From Phormidesmis priestleyi ULC007 (lineage in GTDB: Bacteria > Cyanobacteriota > Cyanobacteriia > Leptolyngbyales > Leptolyngbyaceae): a stretch of DNA of 64,000 nucleotides. This document shows, in pieces, positions 54,005 to 61,356 of this stretch; within the stretch, counting starts at the first letter, position 1, and every line of letters begins with the position of its first letter. The notes under the pieces were generated by a model, which was not told the DNA's origin, did not search any database, and was given only the letters and a program-made list of their open reading frames with translations. The stretch is taken from NCBI RefSeq assembly GCF_001895925.1, contig NZ_MPPI01000013.1, forward strand, positions 8,264 through 72,263, given 5' to 3'. The position numbers were made by a program, and so were the translations under genes.

Positions 54005-56104
54005 GTGCTAGATTCCAATCTCGCCACCCAATCTTCTGCTGTGGGTGTAAGTTCTGATGCGCTTGCTCCGCAGACTTCTTCCGGGATCACTAGTTCTAGC
54101 AGTACCAGTTCAACCTTTCCAGAACTCACTTCAACATCGGCAGCAACTTTGATCCCCGTGGGGACGACAGGATTATCTGCTCAATATTTCAACAATCAAG
54201 ACTTTACAACTCCCGTTTTGACTCGCACAGATGCCACAGTAGACTTTGACTGGGGGCAGGATTCACCCGATGCGACGATCGCCGCCGACCATTTCTCAGG
54301 GCGCTGGATTGGGCAAATCTTGCCGACTCAATCAGAAGCCTACACGTTCTATACTCACTCAGATGATGGGGTGAGGCTGTGGGTGAACGGACAACTTTTG
54401 ATCGATCACTGGACTCCTCACGCGCTGGCCGAAGACAGTAGTGTAATCAATCTCATCGCCGGACAGAAGGTTGATATTCAGCTTGACTATTATGAGCAAG
54501 GCGGCGATGCCGTGTCTAAGCTGCTGTGGTCTAGCCTCAGTCAAGTTAAAGAAGTGGTTCCTCAAAGTCAGCTTTCTACGGGCGATCGTGTTGCCCGCAG
54601 TCAATCGGCTGATTTCACCAGCGCTCTAGACTGGGGTCCACTGGCAACCAATGAGGTTAGAGATAGCGTTAGTTCAACTAATCTCAGTGATTATTATCGC
54701 TTTAGTGTAGACACACCCAGTCACTTAAACTTGAATTTAAGTGAGCTAACTGCCAACGCTAATCTGAATATATTAGATAGCCAGGGCAACGTGCTCAACT
54801 CTTCAGCAAATGATGGAACAATGTTAGAGACGATCGACGCACTGCTCAACGCTGGCACCTATTATCTTCAGGTATATACGAGTGGAGATGTGCAGACTAA
54901 CTATCTACTATCGGCGATCGGGCGATCGTTAACTGAGCAAGCCCAGAGCGCTGACTCATTTGTAGACTCGATGGGAGTCGCGACGCACCTGCGCTATACC
55001 GATACGAGCTATGGGCGCTACAGCGATGTCGTAGAACCCAGACTGCGAGAGTTAGGCATTCGCCATATTCGAGATGGGGGTAACAATGCTGGTATGTTTG
55101 AGAAGCTCAATCGGCTGGCAACTTTTGGGATTCGATCAACCCTTGTAATGGATCCCCGCGATGGCATTACTCCTGACAATGCGGTTGACTTACTCAAAAA
55201 AGTGTTGCCATCAGTGACCGCGATCGAAGGTCCGAATGAGTGGGATGTCAATTCGACGCTGACTTACAAAGGCAAGTCTTTTCCAGAAGGGGTGGCTGAC
55301 TATCAGACAGACTTATACAATGCGGTGAAGGGCGATCCGGCTACGTCATTTGTGTCGGTCTTAGCTCCTTCGCTGGCGTTTTCTGAAAACGGCTCTCGCA
55401 TGGCTTCTCTGGAATCGGTGGTCGATCATGGCAATATGCACAGCTATGCCGGGGGCAACCAACCCGATCAGGATTTAGATACTAAGTGGATTCCTAACAC
55501 GAAGAAAGTTTCGGGAACTCGCGCGATCGTGGCAACTGAAACAGGCTGGCACAATGCTGTCAATGATCCAAATCCTAGTCAAAAAGCAGTCTCAGAGGGT
55601 GTTTCTGCGAAGTATCTTCCTCGAATGTTTTTAGAATATTTCAACCGAGGAGTGAAGCGCACCTTCTCGTATGAATTTATGGATGAGCGAGCAAAGTCCG
55701 ACATGGAGAACAACTTTGGGCTAATTAGAGCCGATGGCACTCCTAAGCCCGCGTTTTACTCAATCAAGAATTTAATTAGTTTGCTGCAAGATTCTCAAGG
55801 CGCGGCGGTTTCGGGTTCTCTAAGTTATTACCTGACTGGCAACACCAAAGACCTGCGGCATACGCTGCTGCAAAAGAGCAATGGCGATCGCTACCTAGTG
55901 ATGTGGTTAGATGTAACTAGTACAGATGCGCCCGTCAGCCAGAAAGTTACCTTAAATCTGATCACTCCGACTCAACAAGCGACGACTTATTTAACAAATA
56001 GCTCGATCGATCCGGTGAGTCAATATACCTCTCCAACCCAAATCGTGTTGGATGTTCCCGATTCGCCATTAGTGGTGAAGTTGACCCCACAAGCGACGGG
56101 TTAA
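54005..56104 (+). CDS. PA14 - PPC - glycosidase-like multidomain protein
   Basis: The 699-residue protein has three parts. After a Ser/Thr-rich start comes a PA14 domain (about 55-185: GLSAQYFNNQDFTTPVLTR, FYTHSDDGVRLWVNGQLLID, QLDYYEQGGDAVSKLLW), a carbohydrate-binding fold. Then a PPC-like domain (about 195-305: DYYRFSVDTPSHLNLNLSEL, GTYYLQVYTSG). Then a TIM-barrel-like hydrolase domain (about 320-600): a likely acid/base Glu in IEGPNEWDVN and a likely nucleophile Glu in ATETGWHNA. It ends in a small beta domain. It has no N-terminal signal peptide, so if it is secreted it would use a non-Sec route such as type I export. The target polymer is not known. The GTG start at 54005 has GAGGA 8 bases before it. 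Confidence 0.82.
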   Translation: MLDSNLATQSSAVGVSSDALAPQTSSGITSSSSTSSTFPELTSTSAATLIPVGTTGLSAQYFNNQDFTTPVLTRTDATVDFDWGQDSPDATIAADHFSGRWIGQILPTQSEAYTFYTHSDDGVRLWVNGQLLIDHWTPHALAEDSSVINLIAGQKVDIQLDYYEQGGDAVSKLLWSSLSQVKEVVPQSQLSTGDRVARSQSADFTSALDWGPLATNEVRDSVSSTNLSDYYRFSVDTPSHLNLNLSELTANANLNILDSQGNVLNSSANDGTMLETIDALLNAGTYYLQVYTSGDVQTNYLLSAIGRSLTEQAQSADSFVDSMGVATHLRYTDTSYGRYSDVVEPRLRELGIRHIRDGGNNAGMFEKLNRLATFGIRSTLVMDPRDGITPDNAVDLLKKVLPSVTAIEGPNEWDVNSTLTYKGKSFPEGVADYQTDLYNAVKGDPATSFVSVLAPSLAFSENGSRMASLESVVDHGNMHSYAGGNQPDQDLDTKWIPNTKKVSGTRAIVATETGWHNAVNDPNPSQKAVSEGVSAKYLPRMFLEYFNRGVKRTFSYEFMDERAKSDMENNFGLIRADGTPKPAFYSIKNLISLLQDSQGAAVSGSLSYYLTGNTKDLRHTLLQKSNGDRYLVMWLDVTSTDAPVSQKVTLNLITPTQQATTYLTNSSIDPVSQYTSPTQIVLDVPDSPLVVKLTPQATG

Positions 56105-59064: not shown

Positions 59065-60300
59065 TCAAGCTTTTTGATCGAGACGAATTGCCTGTTCTAA
59101 GGCTGCTTTTTCTCTGGCTCGATCAACGTAAGGTTGGAGTTTTTCGGCGCTCCAACCCGTCAAAATCTTCAAGTCGTCTACCCTAATTCCTCTCATCAGC
59201 ATGTCGATGCACCAGGTTTGTTGAGGCTGCTCGATCGTCGGAGGCCGCCCGTCTGGCGTGAGAAACTCTTGCGTTAATTCTCGCCATTGCTGCCGCAGTT
59301 CGCTTTCAGAGAGGGAGCTTCCGACCTCATTGATGAATAAGGCTGGCTGGGGGTCTTTGCGACTTTTGAGCCACTGAGTTAACGGATTTTTTGTGTAAGA
59401 GCCATAGCGTTTGCCCAGAATCCACTGATTGATCGGCACTTGGCGCACCGTTCCTTGGCTAACTTGCACAAGCTGCTGGTGAGCGTCATGAATATAGTGC
59501 GATCGCTCTAATCTCACGACCTCTGTAGGACTCAGCCCTGCCCCAAACAGCACATAAACCCAGGCGTAGGATTGTAATCCCTGCTGTTTGGCCCGCTGCA
59601 AAATTGAGTGAACCACTTGAGTCGGGAGATCCGCGATTCGCTCGATCGCCGTGTTCTCGACTCGCACTAAACTGCTGGAATCTAGCGAAGATAGCTCTGC
59701 TGGTGAGACTGCGCCATGTAGAAACAGCGTCACCAAGTTTTCTAAAAAATCCTGTCGGTCTTGCCAGAGGTTATGAAATTCGCTCGTAAACTCAATCACG
59801 GCGTAGCCTAAAAGCATTCCATTCAGCAAGCTGGCGAGTCGCTCGGCTGACAAATAGCTGTGTAACTGTCCACGATCGATAACGGTCTGAAAATATTCAG
59901 CCACATAGCGATTCGCTTGCGTAAAGCCTTGCCCTAACGCCTGTCGGTTTTCAGAAGGATATTGCCCCGCTTCGCCGACGACCGATCGCACGACTTCGGG
60001 CACTCGCTCCAAAGCTTGCAGACAGGCGATCGCATATTCGTTAAGCGCTTGATGCAGACTGCTGGTCTGATTGGCTTGCTCAACGAGCGCTTGACCCAAA
60101 GTGGTAAAAACGGCTGCCTCTTCGATCACAGCTAACAGCAGCCCGTGTTTATTGCCAAACTGACGAAAGAGCGTCACTTCGTTGACATCGGCTCGTTCTG
60201 AGATTTGCCGGGTGGTCGTTTCGGTGACTCCCTGTGAGGCAAATAGCTCTAGTGCAGCCGTGATTAACCGTTGCCGGGTGGGGTTTCGCTGAGACGACAT
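59065..60300 (-). CDS. TetR regulator fused to a degenerate tyrosine-recombinase domain
   Basis: This 411-residue protein (Met at 60300) has two parts. Residues 1-200 are a full TetR protein: HTH with RQRLITAALELFASQGVTET and ISERADVNEVTLFRQFGNKH, then a helical ligand domain. Residues about 220-400 look like the catalytic domain of a tyrosine recombinase (phage integrase): YVLFGAGLSPTEVVRLERSH matches the first box, VRQVPINQWI the strand after it, CIDMLMRGIRVDDLKILTGW and LQPYVDRA the last boxes. But the catalytic Arg of box I is Ser257, the His-x-x-Arg of box II is absent, and only the Tyr (391) is kept. So it cannot cut DNA, but might bind DNA or dimerise. It is divergent from the delta-9 desaturase gene. 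The frame is open to 60339 but that would cover an operator. Confidence 0.85.
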   Translation of the reverse strand: MSSQRNPTRQRLITAALELFASQGVTETTTRQISERADVNEVTLFRQFGNKHGLLLAVIEEAAVFTTLGQALVEQANQTSSLHQALNEYAIACLQALERVPEVVRSVVGEAGQYPSENRQALGQGFTQANRYVAEYFQTVIDRGQLHSYLSAERLASLLNGMLLGYAVIEFTSEFHNLWQDRQDFLENLVTLFLHGAVSPAELSSLDSSSLVRVENTAIERIADLPTQVVHSILQRAKQQGLQSYAWVYVLFGAGLSPTEVVRLERSHYIHDAHQQLVQVSQGTVRQVPINQWILGKRYGSYTKNPLTQWLKSRKDPQPALFINEVGSSLSESELRQQWRELTQEFLTPDGRPPTIEQPQQTWCIDMLMRGIRVDDLKILTGWSAEKLQPYVDRAREKAALEQAIRLDQKA

Positions 60301-60308
60301 AGGCAAAA

Positions 60309-60374
60309 TGCAAGTAACACTTGCAGAAATAACGAACACTTGTTAAGCTGATCAATGTAAGTAGCACTTGCATT
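60309..60374. promoter_or_regulatory. Two TGCAAGT-N3-ACTTGCA operators
   Basis: A perfect palindrome TGCAAGT-AAC-ACTTGCA is at 60309-60325, 9 bases before the TetR gene start. A second, AATGTAAGT-AGC-ACTTGCATT with one mismatch, is at 60354-60374. The centres are 47 bases apart. A half site (CACTTG) lies between, near 60337. Size and place fit TetR-family operators controlling both the regulator and the divergent desaturase. Confidence 0.7.
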
Positions 60375-60498
60375 TATTCCTCTACTGTAACGGTCTTCTA
60401 GCGGAAGCGTGGATGTTTACTCGTGCGTCGAGGAAGTTTGTTGATCGGGCAACCCGATCGAGCACAGATTGATCTCGTCATCTAAACAAAGGATTTTT

Positions 60499-61356
60499 AT
60501 GACCTCTACTTCGATTAAACCTAAAGCTGCGAGTGAACCGCCATCGCTGCAAGAAGAACCCAAACTAGATTGGGTGACTGTAGGATTTTTTGGAGCGTTT
60601 CACGCGATCGCGCTGTCGGCTCCCTGGTTTTTTTCGTGGTCAGCGCTAGGAGTGGCGGTGGTGCTGCACTGGCTGTTTGGCAGCATTGGCATCTGTTTGG
60701 GATATCACCGTTTGCTGACGCACCGCAGCTTTCAGGTGCCCAAGCCGTTAGAACGATTGATCACGCTGATTGGTGCTTTGGCGTTGCAGGGTGGGCCGAT
60801 TTTTTGGGTAGCAGGGCACCGTCAGCACCATTTGCACACTGAAGATGTGGATCTTGATCCCTATTCGGCAAAGCGCGGGTTTTGGTGGAGCCATATGCTT
60901 TGGTTGTTCTATCCGCACCGTCAATTTTTTGACTATGACTCCTGTAAGAAGTTTGCACCTGACCTCGATCGTGACCCGTTCTATCGCTGGTTGAATAAGA
61001 ACTTTTTGATGCTTCAGATCCCAGTTGGGGTAGCGCTCTATTTAGCGGGTGGTTGGTCGTTTGTGATTTATGGGGTGTTTGTGAGAGCCGTTTTGCTATG
61101 GCACAGCACTTGGTTGATTAACTCGGCAAGTCACATCACAGGCTACCGCACGTTTGAGATAGACGACAATTCACGAAACCTATGGTGGGCAGCGATTCTT
61201 ACTTATGGCGAAGGCTGGCACAATAACCACCACGCTTACCCTAACGTGGCAAAAGCGGGCTGGAAATGGTGGGAAATTGATATGACGTGGTGGGCGATTC
61301 AAGGTCTAAATCGGTTGGGTTTGGTGAAGAAACTTGTTCTGCCGCCAAACGACTGA
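60499..61356 (+). CDS. desC: Delta-9 type acyl-lipid desaturase
   Basis: DesC-type enzymes add the first double bond (delta-9) to acyl chains of membrane lipids. The His boxes are HRLLTHRSF, HRQHHLHTED and HNNHHAYPN, with the wide spacing and the EGWHNNHHAYP block of the delta-9 group. Four membrane helices are visible. ATG at 60499 (MTSTSIKPKAA) has AAAGGA 8 bases before it, so I use it and not the upstream open part. About 285 residues, normal. It is divergent from the TetR-fusion gene and follows two palindromes, so it is likely the target of that regulator, as in DesT/FabR systems; this is inference. Confidence 0.9.
   Translation: MTSTSIKPKAASEPPSLQEEPKLDWVTVGFFGAFHAIALSAPWFFSWSALGVAVVLHWLFGSIGICLGYHRLLTHRSFQVPKPLERLITLIGALALQGGPIFWVAGHRQHHLHTEDVDLDPYSAKRGFWWSHMLWLFYPHRQFFDYDSCKKFAPDLDRDPFYRWLNKNFLMLQIPVGVALYLAGGWSFVIYGVFVRAVLLWHSTWLINSASHITGYRTFEIDDNSRNLWWAAILTYGEGWHNNHHAYPNVAKAGWKWWEIDMTWWAIQGLNRLGLVKKLVLPPND

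Follow-up and report, generated by a model that had tools for sequence, protein, structure and literature searches.

The gene at positions 59,065 to 60,300 of the window, the whole stretch of 64,000 nucleotides that was analysed, raises the question why a TetR-type repressor should carry a second domain with the boxes of a tyrosine recombinase, and which genes such a protein may control. The sequence-only reading had proposed that an intact TetR domain is joined there to a catalytically dead recombinase domain, reused as a second DNA-binding or assembly module, and had taken the neighbouring desaturase as a hint of lipid control. The coding features of the locus are as follows.

59065..60300, minus strand: TetR/dead tyrosine-recombinase fusion gene, 411 aa (open reading frame and translation)
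59701..60300, minus strand: TetR half, residues 1-200, helix-turn-helix at about 12-58, ligand/dimer domain to about 200 (PF00440, E 2.4e-13)
59644..59709, minus strand: disordered linker, residues 198-219 (pLDDT <50 in the full-length model)
59068..59649, minus strand: dead tyrosine-recombinase catalytic domain, residues 218-411 (PF00589, model, XerA fold)
60499..61356, plus strand: divergent fatty-acid desaturase of delta-9 type, presumed target (PF00487, E 9.5e-21)

The reading frame starts with the ATG at 60300 and its translation has no internal stop. The Pfam scan places TetR_N (PF00440) on residues 12-58 with an E value of 2.4e-13 and a score of 50.1 bits (cut-off 24), in agreement with the intact TetR domain claimed earlier for residues 1-200. 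This half is predicted as an all-helical ligand-binding and dimerisation fold, residues 3-200 of which align with FadR 5gp9 (Z 17.7, rmsd 3.4, 187 aligned residues). The structures closest to it are FadR acyl-CoA repressors, some of them solved with acyl-CoA; its best structural matches, the acyl-CoA-responsive TetR repressors FadR and FasR (5gp9, 3whc, 3ang, 6o6o), have lipid genes as targets and, unlike the fusion, are about 200 aa long and lack a recombinase domain. DesT of Pseudomonas, a TetR protein that represses a fatty-acid desaturase operon, is also without a second domain. With 411 aa and a second folded domain, the protein exceeds the usual TetR size of about 200 aa, a length which is typical and not strictly defining, and the linker between its halves varies widely in length among the homologues. 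In the one annotated record that was checked, the protein is named only 'TetR/AcrR family transcriptional regulator'.

The match of the C-terminal half to the phage integrase family is weak in the single sequence. PF00589 falls on residues 226-385 of the whole protein with an E value of 2.4e-5, slightly below the curated cut-off, and the half scanned alone (residues 218-411) gives E 4e-6 and 27.2 bits, slightly above the cut-off of 27.1. Chance is nevertheless not the explanation, since PF00589 also matches, with a best E of 2.2e-12, 35 of 39 C-terminal halves taken from homologues, a profile built from these halves finds XerA 4a8e (E 2.1e-7), and the predicted fold itself matches XerA. The AlphaFold2 model of the C-terminal half alone (pLDDT 94.3, pTM 0.90) retrieves in Foldseek XerA 5hxy at E 8.7e-9, followed by XerH, the Tn1549 integrase and Cre, and VIA-align superposes it on 5hxy with a Z of 20.9 over 175 residues; profile and structure comparison thus both uphold the recombinase assignment made from the sequence. 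XerA, an archaeal Xer recombinase (5hxy, 4a8e) and the nearest solved fold, keeps its catalytic residues and its core-binding domain, whereas the fusion family has neither. No Pfam match to the N-terminal core-binding domain was found up to E 10, and the TetR half with the disordered linker stands in its place. Relative to XerA the family also has 9 additional residues, KRYGSYTKN, inserted after beta 3; this insert adjoins the invariant N291-x-W293 and lies in the best-conserved stretch of the domain (entropy 0.60 for residues 290-305 and 0.36 for 306-316).

The set of residues required for cutting is incomplete throughout the family. The alignment places Ser257 at the box I Arg and E357/Q360 at the His-x-x-Arg positions, with Tyr391 and the acidic partner E260 present, exactly as had been read for Ser257, the lost His-x-x-Arg and Tyr391; at the catalytic Lys (about 281), the alignment with XerD reads Ser/Thr. 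Of 117 homologues, 84 have Ser and 2 have Arg at position 257, and most read E-x-x-Q in place of His-x-x-Arg. Tyr391 is kept in 87 of them and replaced in the other 30 (by Leu in 15, Phe in 14 and His in 1), and it cannot therefore be required. The loss of Arg and His, the conservation of which the sequence-only reading had proposed to check in other cyanobacteria, is conserved over the homologues. A recombinase activity persisting in active or cryptic form could be argued from the retained fold, from E260 and from Tyr391 in 87 of the 117 sequences; its probability is close to nil, as the full catalytic set R-K-H-R-H/W-Y occurs in 0 of the 117, the box I Arg is nearly always gone and the Tyr is itself replaceable. 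The two loci which do have the box I Arg, L054 and L153, both lack the rest of the set. Despite the loss of catalytic residues, 22 columns are invariant across 39 aligned C-terminal halves, among them D224, Y249, N291-x-W293, R298, G300, N305-P-L307, R314, W339, T362-W363, G371 and D408, which indicates that the domain has been retained for something other than cutting. As judged from the alignments and the predicted model, the C-terminal half is a recombinase fold reused without catalysis; on this point the sequence-only reading holds, with the catalytic set incomplete in all 117 homologues while the fold and the invariant columns are kept.

The fusion is not a peculiarity of this strain. Of 390 cyanobacterial genomes taken from across the class, 178 have a relative, nearly always as a full-length fusion, and the lack of homologous fusions that would have refuted the earlier proposal is thus not observed. 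Among the genomes of near relatives the count is 62 of 97. A scan of genome contigs, by a method that detects close relatives only, yielded 70 loci, every one of them with a cyanobacterial title. Judging from this distribution, the fusion is ancient. A phage origin or phage relative of the domain was considered and rejected, with 0 matches in 50,697 phage records and none confirmed in viral contigs; a search of PHROGs returned weak integrase families only. The profile search found no standalone relative of the domain in the strain's own genome at E 1. A role in a defence system was likewise discarded, with no PADLOC match.

The neighbouring gene identifies the probable target. Its histidine boxes, HRLLTH, HRQHH and HNNHH, fit the standard of cyanobacterial delta-9 desaturases, HR-X3-H, HR-X-HH and HN-X-HH (PMC2593844), and it is assigned to the delta-9 type on this basis. 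Nearly all loci with sufficient flanking sequence have a PF00487 desaturase beside the fusion gene. Comparison of the sequences further revealed conserved palindromes, putative operators of the TetR type, at the gene's own promoter and at that of the target: the palindrome TGCAAGT-N3-ACTTGCA, which is new in the present analysis, occurs at the desaturase promoter as a pair, O1 and O2. The elements of the intergenic region are listed below.

60309..60325: operator O1, TGCAAGTAACACTTGCA, a perfect palindrome, 8 bp from the ATG of the fusion gene
60321..60326, plus strand: -35-like TTGCAG of the putative desaturase promoter (fixed geometry in relatives)
60341..60349, plus strand: putative extended -10, TGTTAAGCT (TGnTAnnnT), 17 bp after the -35-like box (conservation)
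60356..60372: operator O2, TGTAAGTAGCACTTGCA, 47 bp from O1, over the presumed start of the desaturase transcript
60384..60389, minus strand: TACAGT, putative -10 of the promoter of the fusion gene itself, immediately beyond O2 (conservation)

When 121 loci were oriented toward the desaturase and searched at separations of 38-60 bp, the operator pair was found 42-58 bp apart, mostly 46-48, in 118, as compared to 0 of 6050 base-shuffled control regions; a few loci have the operators at 84-85 bp. The right arm of O1 holds TTGCA, from which TAnnnT is spaced by 17 bp in 103 loci and by 18 bp in 15, and the extended form TGnTAnnnT stands at a spacing of 16-19 in 109 of the 118. In this arrangement a -35-like box is covered by O1, the -10 falls within the spacer, and the expected start of transcription coincides with O2. 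On the other side of O2, ACTNTA (a -10-like TANAGT when read on the other strand) follows within 5-14 bp in 70 of 83 loci; the stretch beyond that has it in 1 of 83. It is likely to be the promoter element of the repressor gene. Conservation between O1 and O2 is confined to the extended -10. A scan with the generic sigma-70 consensus gave no match, the -35 being too weak for the rule of the scan. Two further candidates were examined and dropped: a third operator at 60330-60345 is accounted for by the extended -10, and the reading of the O1 palindrome as a terminator on the minus strand is considered a by-product of the palindrome.

The operators follow the desaturase rather than the position of the repressor gene. 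Where the latter lies about 600 bp off (L057, L059), the pair still precedes the desaturase, and in L145 and L146 (genomes G054 and G086 of family f14), where repressor and desaturase stand in tandem, the pair is found between them. In the strain's own genome of 5.68 Mb, the strict pattern TGYAAGYNNNRCTTRCA has three sites, namely O1, O2 and one on another contig (L112:5330-5346, C102:13329-13345 of the genome) before an unlinked second desaturase, a delta-9-type paralogue. This third site resembles O1, with the same -35/-10 geometry and without O2, and it recurs in the sister genome G001 (L178); two further desaturase paralogues of the strain's genome have no operator site. Across 20 genomes with the fusion, the sites lie at the locus; the exceptions are the site before the second desaturase in G001 and a single extra one in G190. 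The 8 genomes without the fusion gene that were searched contain 0 operator sites. These comparisons suggest that the neighbouring desaturase is very probably the target of the regulator, and the earlier hint of lipid control gains weight from the conserved neighbour and from the operator pair at its promoter. A likely regulator, its operators and its targets can thereby be named for delta-9 desaturation, the first step of membrane unsaturation in cyanobacteria.

Which half of the protein reads the operator can be approached through orthologues that consist of the TetR half alone and adjoin the desaturase. They fall in three places on the TetR-domain tree, namely genus g23 of family f5 (6 genomes), G235, and G064 with the MAG J069, in which the contig ends at the locus (L097) and the short form is unsure. 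All of them have the same palindrome, which indicates that the TetR half is sufficient to read the operator. O2 is absent from f5 and G235, where even the best candidate for a second site, 38-60 bp downstream, differs at 5-8 of 14 positions; in G064 and J069 (L106 and L097) O2 is present at 47 bp with one mismatch, and O2 does not, therefore, need the recombinase domain. The domain and O2 are likely to be linked, by a link that is not obligatory, and the f5 clade may reflect either gain or loss of the domain. Because these natural orthologues share the operator and lack the extra domain, the contribution of that domain can be tested directly. In all six f5 loci (L184, L186, L191, L193, L194, L195), an extra copy of the operator lies at 1501-1517, some 47 bp upstream of the start of a conserved gene for a membrane protein (MVSQWKQHLKNYFVAGLLVVIPLATT...), possibly a second target in that family.

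Taken together, the evidence leans slightly towards an autoregulated repressor of the delta-9 desaturase, in which the dead recombinase domain would act as a module of assembly or control, perhaps by joining the dimers on O1 and O2. Dimers of the TetR half bound to both operators would block RNA polymerase at the desaturase promoter and, from the same positions, the promoter of the repressor itself. An acyl chain, as acyl-ACP or acyl-CoA, may enter the FadR-like pocket and release the repressor, presumably when the membranes need more unsaturation. The tethered domain would neither cut DNA nor read sequence; more tentatively, it may be a protein-protein module that joins or stabilises repressor dimers via the surface 290-316, the helix 358-371 and the C-terminal helix. 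An assembly role is suggested by the strong constraint on precisely these three elements and by the partial coupling of the domain to O2, and the C-terminal helix of a recombinase is the carrier of its subunit contacts. That the dead domains join the two TetR dimers in a synapse-like complex, with O2 recruited along with the domain or kept by it, is a doubtful proposition; if true, the assembly function of the synapse would have outlived its chemistry and would now serve repression. The variable distance between O1 and O2 counts against a rigid bridge, as does, against assembly, the possibility that O2 does no more than serve the promoter of the repressor gene. The strict spacing of the operators was rejected as proof of bridging, as promoter elements fix the spacing too.

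The principal rival to assembly is that the operators serve only two face-to-face promoters, O1 that of the desaturase and O2 that of the repressor, and that the domain has an unrelated job, such as the sensing of a ligand or contact with RNA polymerase or a partner protein. The -10-like element on the repressor strand just past O2 speaks for it, the two promoters fully account for the geometry of O1, -35, -10 and O2, the second desaturase target has O1 only, and L106 and L097 retain O2 without the domain. On the other hand, the absence or loss of the domain accompanies that of O2 in two of the three TetR-only lineages, and the gene neighbourhood suggests neither a partner protein nor a ligand; this explanation is regarded as possible and, on the whole, rather unlikely. 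The earlier idea of a regulator holding two sites stands only in part: it fits the conserved pair O1/O2, which facing promoters can explain as well. Its stronger form is improbable; here the domain would be a second module that binds DNA at a specific sequence and so holds or bends the promoter between O1 and O2. The recombinase fold is retained, the basic residues R286, R298, R314 and K315 are invariant or nearly so, and the repressor MrpR binds DNA with such a fold in the absence of catalysis (PMC10516654). Against this, the mean net charge of the domain is +1.7 (range -5 to +7) as compared to +10 and +11 for two integrases of the same genome, in segments that are comparable and slightly different in extent; the O1-O2 spacer is not conserved outside the extended -10, and the core-binding domain is absent. 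Helix 332-342, taken here to correspond to helix J of Cre, which enters the major groove, is moreover the most variable helix, with a mean entropy of 2.16 as compared to 1.35 for the domain. With a near-neutral domain and a variable counterpart of the major-groove helix, the proposal of a second sequence-specific module is not sustained; bridging or bending of the DNA between the operators is possible as such. An assembly role is ranked as most likely, with an unrelated sensing or contact role as its main rival.

The closest precedent is MrpR (YopR), the master repressor of the Bacillus subtilis prophage SPbeta (8a0a), in which a recombinase fold without recombinase activity likewise serves repression. 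Ser/Val replaces the box I Arg in MrpR and Asn the His, with the Tyr kept, and VIA-align relates the domain model to MrpR/YopR with Z values of 11.8 (8a0a) and 11.9 (8bj6). MrpR is, however, a whole recombinase of core-binding and catalytic domain, encoded by a prophage gene, and binds DNA with that fold, whereas the cyanobacterial family has the catalytic domain only, near-neutral and joined to a TetR half that reads the DNA, with further contacts perhaps added by the domain, and is chromosomal. What it shares with MrpR is the recombinase fold without catalysis within a repressor, as judged from sequence and fold; with no match in phage records or viral contigs, it is not a phage or prophage gene. 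MrpR has lost its recombinase function and most catalytic residues, and wider recruitment of this kind was suspected by its authors (PMC10516654), a suggestion to which the present family adds an example, cellular and not from phage, of a tyrosine-recombinase fold retained in regulation without catalysis. SroF, the repressor of phage phi3T, was compared by its PDB entries alone (9rgl, 9rd5), the titles of which describe a repressor, DNA-bound; the fold matches with a Z of 13.0 (9rgl), and this phage protein has no TetR part apparent from the entry. No open paper on SroF was found. A limited search of the open-access literature, which is not proof of absence, found no report of the fusion or of its role, and the reuse of a recombinase within an ordinary gene switch is apparently unreported so far.

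In L126/L099, L127 and L129, a one-base indel in the same short A-run (codons 237-239) leaves the TetR and C-terminal parts in separate frames; these indels could be assembly errors or real switches. A programmed frameshift at this run between the domains was considered in view of the three broken genomes and set aside, as the run is not conserved. Elsewhere in the window, positions 54005-56104 on the plus strand encode a protein of 699 aa that has PA14 and PPC domains and, towards its C-terminus, a part with no Pfam match at 1e-5.

A copy of the fusion with 67% identity is carried by plasmid pP742403 of Gloeothece citriformis PCC 7424 (L197), where it also adjoins a desaturase. The plasmid is mobilizable, and a gene for an orange-carotenoid-protein N-terminal domain and a light-harvesting-like gene adjoin the fusion and desaturase genes, perhaps forming with them a mobile stress set.
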